A stretch of 64,000 nt of DNA from assembly GCA_026398275.1 (NCBI GenBank), contig JAPLTF010000017.1, positions 1 to 64,000 of the forward strand, in the 5' to 3' direction. A program made the position numbers and the translations under genes. Below the pieces are notes generated by a model. That model worked only from the letters and a program-made list of their open reading frames with translations. It was not told the origin of the DNA and made no database searches. The DNA is from Verrucomicrobiota bacterium. Lineage in GTDB: Bacteria > Verrucomicrobiota > Verrucomicrobiia > Chthoniobacterales > Terrimicrobiaceae. Positions 26,195 to 33,272 of the stretch are shown piece by piece; position 1 is the stretch's first letter; each line of letters starts with the position of its first letter.

Positions 26195-27571
26195 TTACAG
26201 CCCGTATTCTGCCGGTAGAAATTTTTCCCCGTCGGCCATGGCAAGCTGATCGGCGATGAAGTCGTCCTCTTTTTCGGGGAGTTCACCGACGGTATCCGCC
26301 ATGTTGTCGAGCCAGTCTTTTTCGCGCTCGAGGACATGGAGGCATCCGGCCTCCGCCCCTTCGCGCATGACGGCGATCGCCTCGAGTGCGGCGGCACAGC
26401 CGGCCCGGTAGTGGTCCTTCGAGGAAACGATGGCTTTGGCGATGCGGATAATGTTTGTCGGCGTGAGGATATACGCCTGCGGGTCGAGGCCGGCATCCGA
26501 GCGGACGGTCCAGCGCTGATAGGTGGCGACACCTTCCTTGCCGTCCTTGATCGCCTCGTTCATCAGGCGGCAGTCGTAGATGAGCTGTTCCATGTAGCAG
26601 GTCGGGGCCATGCCGCCGAGGAGCTTGATGTTCTGGACCGACTCGTTCGACCAGGTGTCGCAGGCCACCGCCGCGATGTTGCCCAGCGGGCTGAGGTGCG
26701 CGCAGGCCGAGGTCTTCCCCTCCATGGCCATCGGGAAGCCGGTGATCGCCTTGAGAAACGGGTTTTCGTAGCCGCAGTCTTTGCCTGGCCCGACCGCACC
26801 GCATTCGTAGGCGACCAGCGAGCGCACGGCGCTCACGGCGCGGACCGTGGCCGCAAAAACCCTCGGGATCATCTTCTGCTCGGCGAGCACCATGGCGGTG
26901 TTGCCGAACCCGCAGGCGGTGTCGCCGGCGGCGTGAACCCCGTGGCGCGAGGCGATTTCGCTGATCGTGGACCACAGATACTTCATGTCCCTCACCCCGA
27001 CGCAGCACTGCGAGAAGATCACAGCCGCCAGGTCGCCGTTCACCAGCGCGTCGTCGTGGAGTTCCTTCCCGCCCACCGACTCGATGCTGAGCAGTTCGGC
27101 ACCCTCCGCGGCCGAACTCTCGAAGAGCTGGAGCATCCGGTCGAGGTAGTAGCCGCTCCGCATCGTGGGCGGACGCACGAACTCGCGGTTGTCGTTGGGC
27201 GTCATGCGCAGGACCGATTTCAGGCCCGTCGAGGACTCGAACGCGCGCATCCCATCGAGCAGGATCCTCGCGATCGCGAGGCCCCATTCGGGAAATTCCG
27301 TCATCGGCGGGAGCGTCTCAAATTCGATCACGACGCCGTTCGCTTCCAGATCCACGGCGCGGGTGAGCGCTCCGTTGATGATCTCCTTGTAATGTTCCAG
27401 GACGCGAGGCATCGTGTCCTTGTTGATCGTCATCGAGGGCAGCGTGAAGTTGAGTTCCGGATAAACCTGGCCGCCGCCAATGACCATGCCCGAGCGGGTT
27501 TTCAGCGGTTTCGGGGCAGTGCCGAAGGCGAGGGATTCCGGGGTTTCGATTGCGAGAGATTGGTATTTCAT
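26195..27571 (-). CDS. mtaB: Methanol:corrinoid methyltransferase-like protein
   Basis: A 458-residue MtaB-family zinc enzyme, which transfers the methyl group of methanol to the cobalt of a corrinoid protein. The zinc ligands of the Methanosarcina enzyme (Glu164, Cys220, Cys269) have clear counterparts at Glu164 (LSIESVGG), Cys220 (AGDTACGFGNTA) and Cys266 (GPGKDCGYENPF), with near-identical numbering. The VIGGGQVYPELNFTLPS start and MEGKTSACAHLSPLGN are also family-like. Its partner is the corrinoid protein at 28947-29588. No MtaA gene and no full corrinoid-activating ATPase (RamA/RACo) lies in the window. The methyl donor is probably methanol, but related methoxy compounds cannot be excluded. 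Confidence 0.9.
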   Translation of the reverse strand: MKYQSLAIETPESLAFGTAPKPLKTRSGMVIGGGQVYPELNFTLPSMTINKDTMPRVLEHYKEIINGALTRAVDLEANGVVIEFETLPPMTEFPEWGLAIARILLDGMRAFESSTGLKSVLRMTPNDNREFVRPPTMRSGYYLDRMLQLFESSAAEGAELLSIESVGGKELHDDALVNGDLAAVIFSQCCVGVRDMKYLWSTISEIASRHGVHAAGDTACGFGNTAMVLAEQKMIPRVFAATVRAVSAVRSLVAYECGAVGPGKDCGYENPFLKAITGFPMAMEGKTSACAHLSPLGNIAAVACDTWSNESVQNIKLLGGMAPTCYMEQLIYDCRLMNEAIKDGKEGVATYQRWTVRSDAGLDPQAYILTPTNIIRIAKAIVSSKDHYRAGCAAALEAIAVMREGAEAGCLHVLEREKDWLDNMADTVGELPEKEDDFIADQLAMADGEKFLPAEYGL

Positions 27572-27638
27572 AGTTTGAGCGCGGGATCACCGCTTGCAAT
27601 GAACCCTACTCTTCCGGCATCAGCGGAGTCTTTCAATC

Positions 27639-27667
27639 TGGTGCCGAAATTTGGGATTATGGTGCCG
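27639..27667. promoter_or_regulatory. Direct repeat TGGTGCCG, 21-base period, upstream of mtaB
   Basis: TGGTGCCG occurs at 27639-27646 and again at 27660-27667, exactly two helical turns apart, 68-96 bases upstream of the mtaB start. AraC-type activators commonly bind direct repeats with this spacing, and two AraC genes flank the locus. The second copy overlaps the last codons of the AraC gene at 27657. Binding is inferred. Confidence 0.45.
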
Positions 27668-28682
27668 TTTCCCGATAGGCTCTGGGGGTAACGCCTGAGT
27701 AGCGCTTGAAAACGCGCGAAAAATAGCTCTGGTCCTCGAATCCGCAGTCCAGCGTGCGCCCGGTCTTTTCCTTGATCAGCCGGGAAAAATGGCTTCCCGA
27801 GAGTCCGGCGGCACGCGCGACCGAGTCGCGATCCAGCGGCTCGGCCAAGTGCTCCTCCATGTAGGCCACCGCCCGGCCGAGCAGGACGGCATTGGGGAAC
27901 TGCCTGTTGTCGCGGATGGCATCCATCACGCGCTCGAGCATTCCGGAAAGCCAGCGGGAGACCTCCTCCTCGTCCGAAAGTCCCGCGAGGGCGGTGGCGC
28001 TCTCGAAGTTGCACCCGAGAACCCCGGCGGGATCCGCGCCGGCCTCGACCGCCGCACGCGACATCACGACCACGAGTTCCAGCGCAAGGCTCTTCAGGAG
28101 TTCGGGACGCGAGCGGGCGGTGTGATAGATGCCGACCAGAACGCGGTTGATGATCTCGCGGGCTGCGGGACGTTCGCCCCGCTTGATTGCGGCCAGCAGC
28201 CCCGCCTCCTCGCGGAGATAAAGGTCGCGGATGCCGTCGTAAAGGCGATCTTTGAGGGCATGGATCGCCTCGGCTTTTTCCCGCTGCCGCCGGGAATCCT
28301 CTCGCCGCGCTTTCAGAAACTCGGAGTTAGTGAGGTTGTACGATTCCATTTTTGCGAGCAGATGTTCGGCTGCGGATTGGATGCGCCGCGAAATTTCGGC
28401 CGGATCTCCGTCCTCAAGAGCGACATTTTCAACAATGATTCCCCCGGTCACGATCGAGTTGATCATGAGCGGGATCCCCCAGCCGGCCAGCCCCCGATCA
28501 TCGGTCATCACGCACGCTTCTCCCCACCGGATCGCCTCGCGGAACAAGGCAGCTCTCCACTCATCCCCGGCTTTTGCTGCACGGATCCCGCCCCGCGCTT
28601 TTCCAGCCGCATCGACCTCGATGGCGTGAAAGCCAGACTCGCGGCTGTAGTCGCGGAGAAACTGGCTGATCGTTCCGGTCAT
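27657..28682 (-). CDS. AraC-family regulator with PocR-like sensor and internal deletion in DNA-binding domain
   Basis: A 341-residue AraC-type protein; ATG 28682 overlaps the ferredoxin-like stop by four bases. An N-terminal domain (ISQFLRDYSRESGFHAIEVD, RWGEACVMTDDRGLAGWGIPL) resembles PocR-type ligand sensors. A helical middle domain and the DNA-binding domain are paralogous to the regulator at 29643-30386. In the DNA-binding domain the first helix-turn-helix (DSVARAAGLSGSHFSRL) is intact. After KEKTGRT the sequence jumps directly to LDCGFEDQSYF, omitting about 29 residues that the paralogue has there. The reading frame is kept. The missing part is the linker helix and the first helix of the second helix-turn-helix, so DNA binding is probably altered or lost. 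Confidence 0.8.
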   Translation of the reverse strand: MTGTISQFLRDYSRESGFHAIEVDAAGKARGGIRAAKAGDEWRAALFREAIRWGEACVMTDDRGLAGWGIPLMINSIVTGGIIVENVALEDGDPAEISRRIQSAAEHLLAKMESYNLTNSEFLKARREDSRRQREKAEAIHALKDRLYDGIRDLYLREEAGLLAAIKRGERPAAREIINRVLVGIYHTARSRPELLKSLALELVVVMSRAAVEAGADPAGVLGCNFESATALAGLSDEEEVSRWLSGMLERVMDAIRDNRQFPNAVLLGRAVAYMEEHLAEPLDRDSVARAAGLSGSHFSRLIKEKTGRTLDCGFEDQSYFSRVFKRYSGVTPRAYRETAP

Positions 28683-28918
28683 GCAAGCGAGAGGTGGTCC
28701 AAATAGCGGTCCTCGAATCCGGGATCGAGATTCAGCTCGATGGCTTCGGCCCGGAGGAGCAGGGCGGCACCGACCTCCCCGATGCGCAGGGTGTCTCCAT
28801 CCGCGAGATGATGCTGGCAGGCGAGCAAATCCCTGGGTGCCCCGCCCCTTTCCACCACATGGCATCCCCGGCATATCCCGCGCTGGTTGCAGCGCGCAAG
28901 CAGTTCTCGTGAGGGCAC
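28679..28918 (-). CDS. Small 2Fe-2S ferredoxin-domain protein
   Basis: A short protein (79 residues from GTG 28918) with the iron-sulfur pattern RCNQRGICRGC followed by LLACQ, that is C-x5-C-x2-C plus a distal Cys. This is as in the N-terminal 2Fe-2S domain of corrinoid-activating proteins (RACo) and related ferredoxins. The frame stays protein-like for some 8-12 codons upstream (PLLTVSAVG) into the end of the corrinoid gene, so a non-standard start such as CTG near 28942 is possible. It lies 28 bases after the corrinoid gene. From context it may deliver electrons for reductive reactivation of the corrinoid cofactor. It is too short to be a full RACo. Confidence 0.6.
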   Translation of the reverse strand: MPSRELLARCNQRGICRGCHVVERGGAPRDLLACQHHLADGDTLRIGEVGAALLLRAEAIELNLDPGFEDRYLDHLSLA

Positions 28919-28946
28919 CCCTACAGCGGAGACGGTGAGCAGAGGC

Positions 28947-29588
28947 TCAAGCCTTCTCCACCCCGAGAAGCTTCAGCGCAAGATCCACGGCGCTGGCCGC
29001 GTCGGCGCTATACCCGTCCGCTCCGATCTCATTGGAAAAATCCTGGGTGACTGGCGCGCCGCCGACCATGATCTTCAAATCCTTGAGCCCGGCGGCACGG
29101 ACGGCTTCCACGGCGGTCTTCATGGCCGGCATGGTGGTCGTGAGAAGGGCGGAGAGAGCGAGGATGGCGGCGCCATTTTCCTGCACGGCCGCCACAAATT
29201 TTTCCGGCGGAACATTCGTGCCGACGTCCACGACGCCGAAGTTCGCGCCCTTGAGCATCATCGCGACAAGGTTTTTGCCGATATCGTGCAGGTCGCCCTG
29301 GACCGTGCCGATGACGACCGTGTAATTCGGCTTGATTCCGGCCTTGGCGAGAAGCGGCTCGAGAAGCCCCATGGCCTCCTTCATGGCGCGGGCGGCGATA
29401 AGCATCTCGGGAACAAAGACCTCGTTGTTCTTGAATTTCTCGCCGATGGCGCTCATTCCGGGAACGAGCCCCTTTTCGACGATGTCCAGCGGCTGCAGGC
29501 CTTCGTCGAGAAGTGTCTGGGTGAGCGCTTTGGCATCGTTGCGTTTTCCTTTTTCGACGGCGAGAGAGAGGTTGGTGAGGTTGCTCAT
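28947..29588 (-). CDS. mtaC: Corrinoid (B12-binding) protein of a methyltransferase system
   Basis: A 213-residue MtaC/MtbC-type protein. An N-terminal helical cap (B12-binding-2 domain, with EMLIAARAMKEAM) precedes a Rossmann-like cobalamin domain with the base-off/His-on signature QGDLHDIGKN, axial ligand His101, then ALSALLTTTMPAM and IMVGGAPVT. It accepts the methyl group from MtaB and passes it to a second methyltransferase. It is the second gene of the minus-strand locus, between an AraC gene and the small 2Fe-2S gene, and separated from mtaB by the deleted AraC gene, an unusual gene order. Family assignment is firm; methanol specificity follows from the MtaB partner. Confidence 0.9.
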   Translation of the reverse strand: MSNLTNLSLAVEKGKRNDAKALTQTLLDEGLQPLDIVEKGLVPGMSAIGEKFKNNEVFVPEMLIAARAMKEAMGLLEPLLAKAGIKPNYTVVIGTVQGDLHDIGKNLVAMMLKGANFGVVDVGTNVPPEKFVAAVQENGAAILALSALLTTTMPAMKTAVEAVRAAGLKDLKIMVGGAPVTQDFSNEIGADGYSADAASAVDLALKLLGVEKA

Positions 29589-29642
29589 AGTGTGTTGAAT
29601 TGAAGCGGCACCCTGGCAGAAACTGAGAGCCGGGTCTTGTGT

Positions 29643-30386
29643 TCATGGCGGATTTTTTTGTGTTTTCAACACCCCGGGGAACCCGTTCCGATAATGTTTC
29701 GGGGTCTCTTTTTTCATCTGTTGGAAGACGTGGGTGAAATAGCTTTGGTCACAAAAACCGCAATCAGCCGCGATGGCCGCCAGGGAAAGTTCGGTGCTTC
29801 TCAGGAGCTCGCAGGCTTTTTCAACGCGGGCCTCGCGGAGGAGTTGGGTAAATGACCTTCCCGTCTTTGTCTGGAGAAGTTCGGCGAGATGCGGGGAGGA
29901 AACGCCGACCCGGCGCGCCACTTCGGATCTTGTCAGGGGCGTGGCACATTCCTCCCGCATCATCTTCAGGGCACGTCCCACAATGGCCGGCATTTCAAAC
30001 TTCTGATGGCGTTCAACCGCTTCAAAAATTCGGACAACAGAATCCCTCAGCCAGCCCGCGAGGCGTTCGTCATCGGCGGTTTCCGCCAGCTCGACAAGGT
30101 GCCTGTATCGCAAGCCAAGAACCTCTGACTGCGGGGCACCAGCCTCGACCGCTGCACGGGACATCATGACAATCAATTCCAGCAATAGACCTTTGAGAAG
30201 CTCGCTCTTTTCGGCTCCGGCGCTGTAAATATGCACGAGCAGGAGATTGATGATCCGAGTCGCATTGTGACGGTCTCCCCTTCGGATGGACGCAAGGAGA
30301 GCGGGTTCCTCATACAGATAGAGTTCCCTGATGGCATCAAGGGGAGTGCAGGAATCGAGCTCTACGGCCGGGAAATCGTTTTTCAT
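29643..30386 (-). CDS. AraC-family regulator of the methyltransferase locus
   Basis: A 247-residue regulator paralogous to the C-terminal two thirds of the protein at 27657-28682 (for example VVVMSRAAVEAGA / IVMMSRAAVEAGA) but without the PocR-like sensor. The AraC DNA-binding domain is complete: TRSEVARRVGVSSPHLAELL, then REARVEKACELLRST and LAAIAADCGFCDQSYFTHVF. It is the first gene of the minus-strand locus, 54 bases before the corrinoid gene. It is probably the functional activator of mtaC-mtaB, perhaps modulated by the sensor-bearing, DNA-binding-impaired paralogue. Confidence 0.85.
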   Translation of the reverse strand: MKNDFPAVELDSCTPLDAIRELYLYEEPALLASIRRGDRHNATRIINLLLVHIYSAGAEKSELLKGLLLELIVMMSRAAVEAGAPQSEVLGLRYRHLVELAETADDERLAGWLRDSVVRIFEAVERHQKFEMPAIVGRALKMMREECATPLTRSEVARRVGVSSPHLAELLQTKTGRSFTQLLREARVEKACELLRSTELSLAAIAADCGFCDQSYFTHVFQQMKKETPKHYRNGFPGVLKTQKNPP

Positions 30387-30547
30387 GCTGGATCGCGATC
30401 ATGAGGGCCGAATGACAAATACACCAGCGCTGGATTTTCGGATGTGCAGGCTTGGATCATCATCGGCGGAATGCCGATCTGAAACCCATTCGGGCGCATC
30501 TGGACTATCACCGAAGCTCACCGCCGCAGCTCATGCTCCAGCTCCGC

Positions 30548-31270
30548 CTACCGTCCGACCGCCAGGCGGTCGGCGAGCTTCCCGGGGAGGCCGGCTTCGA
30601 TGATCGCTTTCTGGGCCGCGGCGATATCGTATTCGAGCCGGCGCAGCGTGACCTTGTTGGCGATCGTGTCGTAGATGCAATACGCGGTCCGCCAGTCGCC
30701 GTCGCGCGGCTGCCCGACGCTGCCCACGTTGATCAGATATTTTTTCCCCGGCATGAGGTCGAGCGACTCAAAGGCGATCGTGCGGACGCTGCCGTCGCGG
30801 ATGTAGGCCTTCGGGGAGTGGGTGTGGCCGATGAAGCAGAGCGCGGTGTGCTGGTAGCTGAAACTGGCGGCGGCATCGAGCTGGTTGAAGACGTAGCCCC
30901 ACTTGTGGGGCGTATCCAGCGTGGCGTGCACGATCGTAAAATCCCGGACCTGGCGCTGGAGCCTCAGCGTGCGGAGCCAATCCTTGTCCTTCTCGGAGAG
31001 CTGGTCCCGCGTCCAGTTCATCGCCTCCTCCGCGAGCGCGTTGAACCCTTCCTGAAATCCGAACATCGAGGCCTGCTCGTCGTGGTTTCCCTTGACGACC
31101 GGGCAGTCGAGGTTGCGCACGATGTCGAGGCATTCCCTGGGAAACGCGTTGTAGCCCACGACATCCCCCATGCACACGTAGTGGGTGCATTTTTCGGTTT
31201 CCGCATCGGCGAGAACCGTTTGAAGGGCATGAAGGTTGGCGTGGATGTCGCCGAATATGGCAAATCGCAT
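30548..31270 (-). CDS. Metallophosphoesterase, YfcE/calcineurin-like
   Basis: A 240-residue dinuclear-metal phosphoesterase with all family motifs in order: FAIFGDIHAN, CMGDVVGYNAFP, VVKGNHDE, the FTIVHATLD His, and FIGHTHSP. The C-terminal NVGSVGQPRDGD motif is typical of the group acting on phosphodiesters or dinucleoside polyphosphates. The length is normal. No functional link to neighbours is apparent; the 160 bases before it contain only two short palindromes (GATCGCGATC and CCAGCGCTGG). Confidence 0.88.
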   Translation of the reverse strand: MRFAIFGDIHANLHALQTVLADAETEKCTHYVCMGDVVGYNAFPRECLDIVRNLDCPVVKGNHDEQASMFGFQEGFNALAEEAMNWTRDQLSEKDKDWLRTLRLQRQVRDFTIVHATLDTPHKWGYVFNQLDAAASFSYQHTALCFIGHTHSPKAYIRDGSVRTIAFESLDLMPGKKYLINVGSVGQPRDGDWRTAYCIYDTIANKVTLRRLEYDIAAAQKAIIEAGLPGKLADRLAVGR

Positions 31271-31299
31271 GGAAGGTAGTAAGGCGGCTTCGCGTGGCG

Positions 31300-32067
31300 T
31301 CAGGGGTTTTCTACCCTTTCGGGGGCGGGGATATCCAGTTTCTTTTCCATGTCGCGAAGAACATTGATGAGCGTGGGCAGCCGCTGCTTGTCGCCTTCGA
31401 GGTAAAGCTTCTTCAGCAACTCATACGATTCGCGCTCGCGGCCGGCGCATTTGGCCATCTCATATCCGGCAAACCGGCGGCAATACGGAGGCGCATCCGG
31501 AAACTCCGAGGCCCGCATAAATGCCTCCGCCGCCCCGCAGTGGTCCTCGAATTTGTCTCTCAGCAAGACCCCGAGCTGGAGGTAGAGCTGGTATTTGTCC
31601 GGGTTGTTCCGGATCCCCCGCTCGAGGAGATCGCGCCCGAGCTCGAAATACTGCCGCTGGGCGCGGATCCGGAGCGCCTCGCTCGGCTGCTTCTCATCCT
31701 GCATCACCGCCACGCTGGCGTTGTAGGCCATATGCCAGGCGGCCATGTCCCAATACAGGAGCGAGCGCGGCTGGAGCGTCGTCACCGTGTCAAAGAGCCC
31801 GGCCATCCGCCCCCACTCCGTGTTCTCCCAGGCGGTATGCACCTCGATCCAGAGAAACGCGGCGAGCGGCGAGCGGAACCCGCTCAGCGCCGCCAGGAAC
31901 CCCATCTGCCCGATCCGCTCGCGCAGGTCGAGGTTCAACGCGCCCTGGCGGAGGTTCGCCACCTTCGCCTCCGCGGACAGGTGAACCTGCAAAGGCAGGA
32001 GCGCCGCGCCGAATCCGGCAAGCAACAAAACCGCCAGCGAGCGACGCGCCTTCATCACTCTCCTCAT
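31300..32067 (-). CDS. Membrane-anchored TPR-like protein
   Basis: A 255-residue protein with an N-terminal hydrophobic segment (LAVLLLAGFGAALLPL, about residues 11-27) and a helical-repeat body. YFELGRDLLERGIRNNPDKYQLYLQLGVLL resembles tetratricopeptide repeats and is followed by an AEAFMRASEFPDAP segment. Its start overlaps the stop of the ABC-2 permease gene by four bases, so the two are translationally coupled. A role as an accessory of that export complex is plausible. No catalytic motif. Confidence 0.6.
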   Translation of the reverse strand: MRRVMKARRSLAVLLLAGFGAALLPLQVHLSAEAKVANLRQGALNLDLRERIGQMGFLAALSGFRSPLAAFLWIEVHTAWENTEWGRMAGLFDTVTTLQPRSLLYWDMAAWHMAYNASVAVMQDEKQPSEALRIRAQRQYFELGRDLLERGIRNNPDKYQLYLQLGVLLRDKFEDHCGAAEAFMRASEFPDAPPYCRRFAGYEMAKCAGRERESYELLKKLYLEGDKQRLPTLINVLRDMEKKLDIPAPERVENP

Positions 32068-32930
32068 AGCTCGCGGCCGGCGAAGACGATGGCGGCGAGG
32101 AAAAAATAGACGGCCACGTAGATCCCGCCGAGCGCCATCGTCTGCAGGAAAAGCCCGGTCGGAATGGCGACGCCCGCGATCACGTTATCGACAAAATTGA
32201 ACGCCTGCAGGTCGGGGAACAGGAGCGCGACCAGCGAGGCCAGCAGGCGCGACCACCAGTGGACATCACCCCCGGCCATCCAGAATTCCCTCGCCGTCGA
32301 CTGCAGGTGCCCGATGAAGTAGATCGCGATCGCCATCAGGATCGCGAACAGCCCGGAGCTGGCGAAGGTCGAGAGAAACAGCGTGAGCGACGCGAGCAGC
32401 GCCGACTTGGCAAAGATGATCGCGATGCCGGGGAAGAGGTTGGTGTTGAATGTCGAGTCCGTCACCTCTTTGAGCGCGGCCGCGAGCTCCTCGGCGGACC
32501 CTCCCGCAAGCTGCGCGCGCGTCTCCGAAAGCACGTTGTGCTCGCGGAGCCACAGCACTGCAAGGAACAGCCCGGTCATCAGCAGGATCGATAGGGCCAG
32601 CAAAAGCAGGATGCCGGCCAGCTTGCCCAACAGATACGAGAACCGCGGCACCGGCTTCGCGAGGATCGTGTAGATTGTCCGGTCCTCGATGTCCTTCGGT
32701 AAAAAATTCGCCGTGGCCAGGATCGCGAGGATCGACGAGAAGACCGACATCGCCCCCAGCGAGATGTCCTTCAGCATTTGAAACTGCTCCTGAAACGAAA
32801 ACTTCGCCACGAATGCCGAGTTCCCGATAATCAGAAGCGCGAAGATCAGCAGAAAGTAGAACACCTTCATCCGCACCAACTCGGTAAACGTGTTCCACCC
32901 GATCGCCCATGTGCCTTGCAAGGATTTCAT
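32064..32930 (-). CDS. ABC-2 type transporter permease
   Basis: A 288-residue membrane protein of the NosY/ABC-2 permease group with about six hydrophobic segments. The N-terminal amphipathic stretch GWNTFTELVRMKVFYFLLIF and the segment DIEDRTIYTILAKPVPRF are typical. A large extracytoplasmic loop separates segments 3 and 4. No ABC ATPase gene lies next to it in this window, so it must use an ATPase encoded elsewhere or be part of a rearranged operon. It is coupled to the TPR-like gene downstream. The cargo is unknown. Confidence 0.8.
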   Translation of the reverse strand: MKSLQGTWAIGWNTFTELVRMKVFYFLLIFALLIIGNSAFVAKFSFQEQFQMLKDISLGAMSVFSSILAILATANFLPKDIEDRTIYTILAKPVPRFSYLLGKLAGILLLLALSILLMTGLFLAVLWLREHNVLSETRAQLAGGSAEELAAALKEVTDSTFNTNLFPGIAIIFAKSALLASLTLFLSTFASSGLFAILMAIAIYFIGHLQSTAREFWMAGGDVHWWSRLLASLVALLFPDLQAFNFVDNVIAGVAIPTGLFLQTMALGGIYVAVYFFLAAIVFAGREL

Positions 32931-33272
32931 TGTTGGCCCCGAGCGTAGGAATTTCCGGCAGGATTCACAAGATTTTCAGAAAAGGGGAACTGCGCCTCGC
33001 GTTGATCCCTTCCCGGGAGCATGCCCGTCCTGGGTGTGGTTTCTGGCGTCCCCGCCGGAAAATCGTTCCGGCGGGACGCCACCCCGCAGCCTGCTCCGGA
33101 TCGGATAAAACCCAGAGAAAGGTGTTGGGCCAATTTGGGCCAAGAATCGAAATTTCGGGCCGGTTTTTCTGGCGTTTTCAGCGATTGCTGGCGTTTGAGA
33201 ATTTCAGAGCGGCCGGCTGGAAACCCTTTATTTATCGGCTTTCCCGAGGCAAGACCACTTTTTTTGAAGTGG
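32931..33272. other. Intergenic region between ABC-2 permease and tRNA-Pro
   Basis: About 340 bases with no convincing gene. It holds a long hairpin at 33045-33080, repeats of TTTTCTGGCGTTTT-like sequence near 33167 and 33195, and a second hairpin adjoining the tRNA. It probably contains the promoter of the permease gene, which I could not pinpoint. Confidence 0.4.
33045..33080. repeat. REP-like hairpin
   Basis: GGCGTCCCCGCCGGAA and TTCCGGCGGGACGCC form a 15-pair stem with one bulged C and a five-base loop (AATCG). The 12-mer GTTCCGGCGGGA of this hairpin recurs around 62543-62554 in another intergenic region, hinting at a dispersed repetitive extragenic element. No T tract follows on either strand, so a terminator is less likely. 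Confidence 0.45.

Follow-up and report, generated by a model that had tools for sequence, protein, structure and literature searches.

A decayed RACo gene within a methanol methyltransferase locus of a Verrucomicrobiota bacterium, with MtaB and MtaC intact

The window analysed here, a 64,000-nt part of contig C32 from a Chthoniobacterales-like Verrucomicrobiota bacterium, carries an mta locus of five frames on the minus strand: araC1, mtaC, a small frame, araC2 and mtaB (Table 1). A first-pass annotation, made from the sequence alone, had listed the same five frames, and had considered the locus unusual, its order unlike that of known methanol operons, with a private mini-ferredoxin encoded by the small frame. 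The locus therefore raises the question of whether it is a new arrangement of a corrinoid methyltransferase system or something more familiar. We find an ordinary bacterial locus for methanol methyltransfer, two of whose genes are partly decayed. The overall explanation that we favour, with a probability of roughly 0.87, is that a larger mta operon has decayed, leaving a scar of the RACo gene and an intact MtaB and MtaC that are served in trans. The host genome is a metagenome-assembled 4.66-Mb draft (117 contigs, 98.7% complete), and the comparison set consisted of 51 loci from other genomes, most of them Verrucomicrobiota. A literature search turned up no paper on Verrucomicrobiota MtaB loci of this kind.

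Table 1. Coordinates of the mta locus and of the pieces of the RACo scar in the window
Feature	Position	Strand	Description
araC1	29643..30386	(-)	AraC-type regulator, 247 aa; complete HTH, PF12833 1-79/80
mtaC	28947..29588	(-)	corrinoid protein, 213 aa; PF02607 + PF02310; GDLHDIG cobalt-ligand motif
RACo deletion scar ('mini-ferredoxin')	28679..28918	(-)	79-aa open frame from GTG
Scar piece 1, RACo ferredoxin loop (RCNQRGICRGC...DLLACQHH)	28791..28898	(-)	74% nt identity to nt 173-281 of C102 RACo (host genome, G000:C102)
Scar piece 2, 33 nt (11 codons) of ASKHA C-terminal domain (LRIGEVxxALL)	28758..28790	(-)	82% nt identity to nt 1271-1304 of C102 RACo
Scar piece 3, last 79 nt (26 codons) of RACo (IELNLDPGFEDRYLDHLSLA)	28679..28757	(-)	81% nt identity to nt 1553-1632 of C102 RACo
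araC2	27657..28682	(-)	PocR-type AraC regulator, 341 aa; 28-residue in-frame deletion within HTH
mtaB	26195..27571	(-)	methanol--corrinoid methyltransferase family, 458 aa; zinc ligands E164/C220/C266

The two catalytic components are what they had been taken to be. MtaB matches PF12176 over its full length (residues 2-457, profile positions 3-460/460, 537 bits, E 4.8e-161), and its E164, C220 and C266 align with E164, C220 and C269 of Methanosarcina barkeri MtaB (2I2X, 2i2x_A), the established zinc ligands of that enzyme. MtaC has both B12-binding domains, the cap (PF02607) and the Rossmann domain (PF02310), with the DxHxxG ligand motif in the form GDLHDIG. The earlier identification of both proteins, with all three zinc ligands and the cobalt ligand kept, is thus borne out. 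In a comparison with the same-genus locus L007 (genome G001), amino acid identity is 91% for MtaB (pN/pS 0.10) and 90% for MtaC (pN/pS 0.08). Judged from these sequences, both proteins are intact and under purifying selection. Methanol is the putative substrate of MtaB, as suggested by the chemistry of the family. The locus resembles the MtaABC methanol:corrinoid system of Methanosarcina and of acetogens such as Moorella and Sporomusa in its PF12176 MtaB with the same zinc ligands and in the two B12-binding domains of its MtaC, and an MtaA-type protein is present in the host genome. It differs from that system in that the window operon is without MtaA, the regulators are of the AraC/PocR type and the activator is of the RACo type. 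Additionally, MtaB scores 414.9 bits against the NCBIfam methanol equivalog NF040651, below the cut-off of 720, a model that appears to be tuned to close archaeal relatives.

Methyl-esterified or methoxylated glycans had been proposed as a plausible source of the methanol. The pectin version of this idea is weakened, as there is no match in the host genome to CE8 pectinesterase (PF01095), the one esterase family that the search for methanol release covered. The mta operon does adjoin sugar-degradation genes: the stretch from 26150 back to 20763, directly beside the locus, encodes a GH4 glycosidase, an alpha-L-rhamnosidase-type protein and an MFS_2 sugar transporter. Elsewhere in the window, partial copies of the segment 46392-46564, from the beginning of a 1336-aa frame, are numerous in G001 and in a second same-genus genome, G002; it is perhaps a shared signal or anchor segment.

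The small frame had been described as resembling only the 2Fe-2S domain of RACo. The resemblance to that domain holds, but the C-terminus of RACo is present too. The frame consists of three pieces that are collinear with RACo and joined in frame; relative to the complete RACo on contig C102, 990 nt are absent between the first and second and 249 nt between the second and third. Also gone, with the native RACo start, are beta strands 1 and 2 and helix 1 of the ferredoxin (Fd) fold, and the PLNT residues that precede the first cysteine in nearly all RACo copies are absent. The window copy has no Pfam match; the PF17651 middle domain and the PF14574 ASKHA domain are absent from it. The scar descends from an activase of the RACo/DUF4445 type (corrinoid reductive activases such as Carboxydothermus RACo, 3ZYY/4C1N, and the bacterial RamA-like proteins), and differs from these in that its start, half of its ferredoxin domain and the two domains on the ATPase side have been lost. 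For the stretch of 50 nt that separates the mtaC stop from the Fd loop, short BLAST searches against the related loci gave chance-length matches only.

The relatives point the same way. Across about 50 related loci, L015 apart, RACo is complete whenever the contig extends far enough, and there is no other stand-alone mini-ferredoxin among them; the exact scar is present in one genome only. The first-pass annotation had named lack of conservation of the small frame as telling against it, and relatives never have this frame as a small protein; they have it solely at the N-terminal end of a 529-aa RACo. On sequence grounds, the 'mini-ferredoxin' is a leftover of a full-length RACo gene and not a separate gene, and the feature that had made the locus distinctive is a pseudogene fragment.

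The decay has kept the reading frame. The measurable deletions, two in RACo and one in araC2, are all three multiples of three (chance about 1 in 27). On hand-set alignment blocks, changes at conserved sites among the retained RACo codons number 3/50 in the scar versus 1-2 of 48-49 in intact copies. Three frame-keeping deletions without excess change at conserved codons suggest that the scar is young or under some constraint, so that the decay of RACo would be recent or a weak constraint would remain. The scar stop overlaps the araC2 start as ATGA, and the same RACo stop/AraC start overlap is found in L015, L018, L019, L021 and L055. This overlap suggests translational coupling, which may be why the RACo pieces stayed in frame.

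Two related AraC genes had been noted at the locus and both are found, one of the AraC type, in which a profile search detects no PocR domain, and one of the PocR type. Both had been considered intact; araC2, however, is without 84 nt (28 residues) inside its HTH, with the junction near 27756/27757. Because of this loss the HTH matches only positions 52-79/80 of PF12833, compared with 2-79/80 in L007, where AraC2 is intact (370 aa). Outside its deletion, araC2 has a pN/pS of 0.25 against G001. AraC1 is 72% identical to its ortholog in L007 (pN/pS 0.26) and is likely to be the remaining regulator. The noncoding stretch 5' of mtaB at 27600-27665 (TAATCCCAAATTT..GCAC..GA.TGAAAGA) is conserved in L007 directly past the araC2 stop and is a candidate operator.

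The related loci contain a recurrent kit of DUF1638, RACo, AraC, MtaC and MtaB, with or without MtaA and an S-methyltransferase, in varying order. In L007, AraC1-MtaC-MtaA-DUF1638 is convergent to RACo-AraC2-MtaB, and a full RACo (529 aa, PF17651 + PF14574) lies directly before AraC2 and MtaB. In G002 (L095:9047-12963), AraC1, a truncated MtaC, a 5'-deleted MtaA, DUF1638 and RACo are collinear on one strand; the truncated mtaC is fused to the mtaA remnant, there is no mtaB and RACo is intact. This mta operon appears to be decaying on its own, independently of the window locus. Taken together, the G002 order, the window order (scar-araC2-mtaB) and the G001 order (RACo-araC2-mtaB) suggest araC1-mtaC-mtaA-DUF1638-RACo-araC2-mtaB as the simplest ancestor, a seven-gene order assembled from three genomes that each have only part of it. 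Deletions between mtaC and araC2 would then have taken mtaA, DUF1638 and the greater part of RACo, and a further one 28 codons of araC2. The gene order in the window is a remnant of the larger operon found in relatives rather than a design of its own.

A second, independent RACo scar is present in L015 (6458-6571), where about 38 RACo C-terminal codons, with an in-frame TAA, lie before AraC1 and are preceded by a short URO-D-like N-terminus. Two further loci may hold eroded copies: in L090 (G051:C144:43082-44656) a single in-frame TGA lies within the RACo match, which is possibly a further copy in decay, and L057:4694-5104 has mtaB fragments only, possibly another eroded one.

As the first-pass annotation had stated, neither MtaA nor a complete activator is found in the neighbourhood of the window locus. 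It had proposed a search for the missing second methyltransferase and RACo elsewhere, and this turned up a RACo on contig C102 and an MtaA-type candidate on contig C115. The C102 RACo is the one complete copy in the host genome. It is 83% identical to the G001 RACo and its middle and C-terminal domains are complete (PF17651 1-159/163, PF14574 3-249/261). It directly follows a PF02574 homocysteine S-methyltransferase gene, the pair lying between ATP synthase genes and mraZ; the best match of this PF02574 protein among the comparisons is the homocysteine domain of MetH. DUF1638 is located on contig C50. RACo, the S-methyltransferase and DUF1638 are thus all intact elsewhere in the host genome. 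Of an ortholog of the G001 MtaA, the host genome keeps just the last 26 codons, which lie in front of DUF1638 on C50 and overlap it. There are 22 URO-D matches in the host genome, and C115:36004-37011 is the best MtaA candidate seen (closest PDB match MtaA 4AY7, E 1e-23; HICGN and GC motifs); it is 64% identical to the URO-D protein adjoining MtaB in L027. A complete canonical mta operon elsewhere, which with this copy silent would have told against the first-pass reading, is ruled out by the single copy of MtaB in the host genome.

The only PF02607 proteins in the host genome are MtaC and MetH, and MetH is complete. Because MetH, the sole other member of the corrinoid family, has its own activation domain (PF02965), MtaC is the only evident client of the C102 RACo. 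In the mechanism that we propose, MtaB would transfer to the cob(I)amide of MtaC a methyl group taken from methanol or a comparable small donor, as in the chemistry of its family. The intact C102 RACo would re-reduce inactivated Co(II)-MtaC in trans, perhaps with the DUF1638 protein of C50. The methyl acceptor step could be carried out by the unlinked MtaA-type URO-D protein of C115 or by the homocysteine S-methyltransferase beside RACo.

The last of these options leads to a more specific but doubtful proposal, that in these bacteria MtaBC delivers the methyl groups for a split methionine synthase in which the RACo-linked PF02574 protein makes methionine, so that mtaA is dispensable. A PF02574 homocysteine S-methyltransferase gene is found within 8 kb of mtaB, in several arrangements, in 10 related loci (L007, L017, L018, L021, L026, L029, L032, L033, L042 and L055). 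Precedents for the proposed mechanism are the Phaeobacter split methionine synthase, which works with a RamA-like activator and DUF1638 (PMC5764234), and the Ruegeria MtgBCDE system, which carries out glycine betaine demethylation (PMC12478193). Common to these kits and the present one are a separate PF02574 homocysteine methyltransferase, a separate corrinoid protein, a RamA/RACo-like activator and DUF1638. In contrast with them, the methyl donor enzyme here is MtaB, a complete MetH is encoded in the host genome as well, and the loci examined yielded no pterin-binding subunit.

Three other explanations of the locus have to be weighed. The small frame could be a functional, reduced electron-transfer protein that feeds electrons to MtaC or to another activator. 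It keeps all four cysteines (C-x5-C-x2-C-x14-C) and its reading frame, and its retained codons show no clear relaxation. We nevertheless consider such a function extremely improbable, given the loss of the start codon, of half the Fd fold and of the PLNT residues, and given a C-terminal end made of unrelated RACo C-terminal residues. Supplied with the same relatives as alignment, AlphaFold predicts the scar as disordered (pLDDT 45.8, pTM 0.26) and the intact Fd domain as folded (pLDDT 79.8, pTM 0.70), and the Foldseek matches of the modelled intact domain are [2Fe-2S] ferredoxins. No relative has such a frame, and a full RACo exists in the genome. The in-frame RACo C-terminus, the lost start and half fold and the lack of a confident predicted fold lead us to reject the private ferredoxin, and ferredoxin function is almost certainly absent from the scar.

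The deletions could also be an artefact of metagenome assembly, since the draft is in 117 contigs and several deletions fall within one short stretch. That stretch is non-repeated, however, and in the independent assemblies G002 and L015 erosion has struck this operon at different breakpoints. The adjoining 2.39-kb block 30542-32931 is collinear with G001, G002 and G003 (no large gaps) and the other window proteins fill their Pfam models essentially over the full length, so a general assembly fault is unlikely; we regard the artefact as a whole as very unlikely. Less remote, though still unlikely, is that the locus as a whole is dead, a cluster of pseudogenes in which MtaB and MtaC have merely not yet been hit. 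RACo and AraC2 are damaged, mtaA is lost, and in G002 mtaB has gone and mtaC is truncated. Against this, neither MtaB nor MtaC is shortened, both keep all their ligands and have a low pN/pS, and RACo, the S-methyltransferase and DUF1638 are kept intact elsewhere while MetH activates itself. We conclude that the window locus belongs to a known kind of system, is now partway through its decay and probably continues to be served in trans.

This result removes a false lead, the free-standing RACo-type ferredoxin, and the locus illustrates how a corrinoid operon erodes while its activator comes from elsewhere in the genome. The most interesting leftover is the recurrent linkage of MtaBC with a homocysteine methyltransferase, a possible link from methanol to methionine, and the recurrent kit makes a direct methanol-to-methionine route testable.
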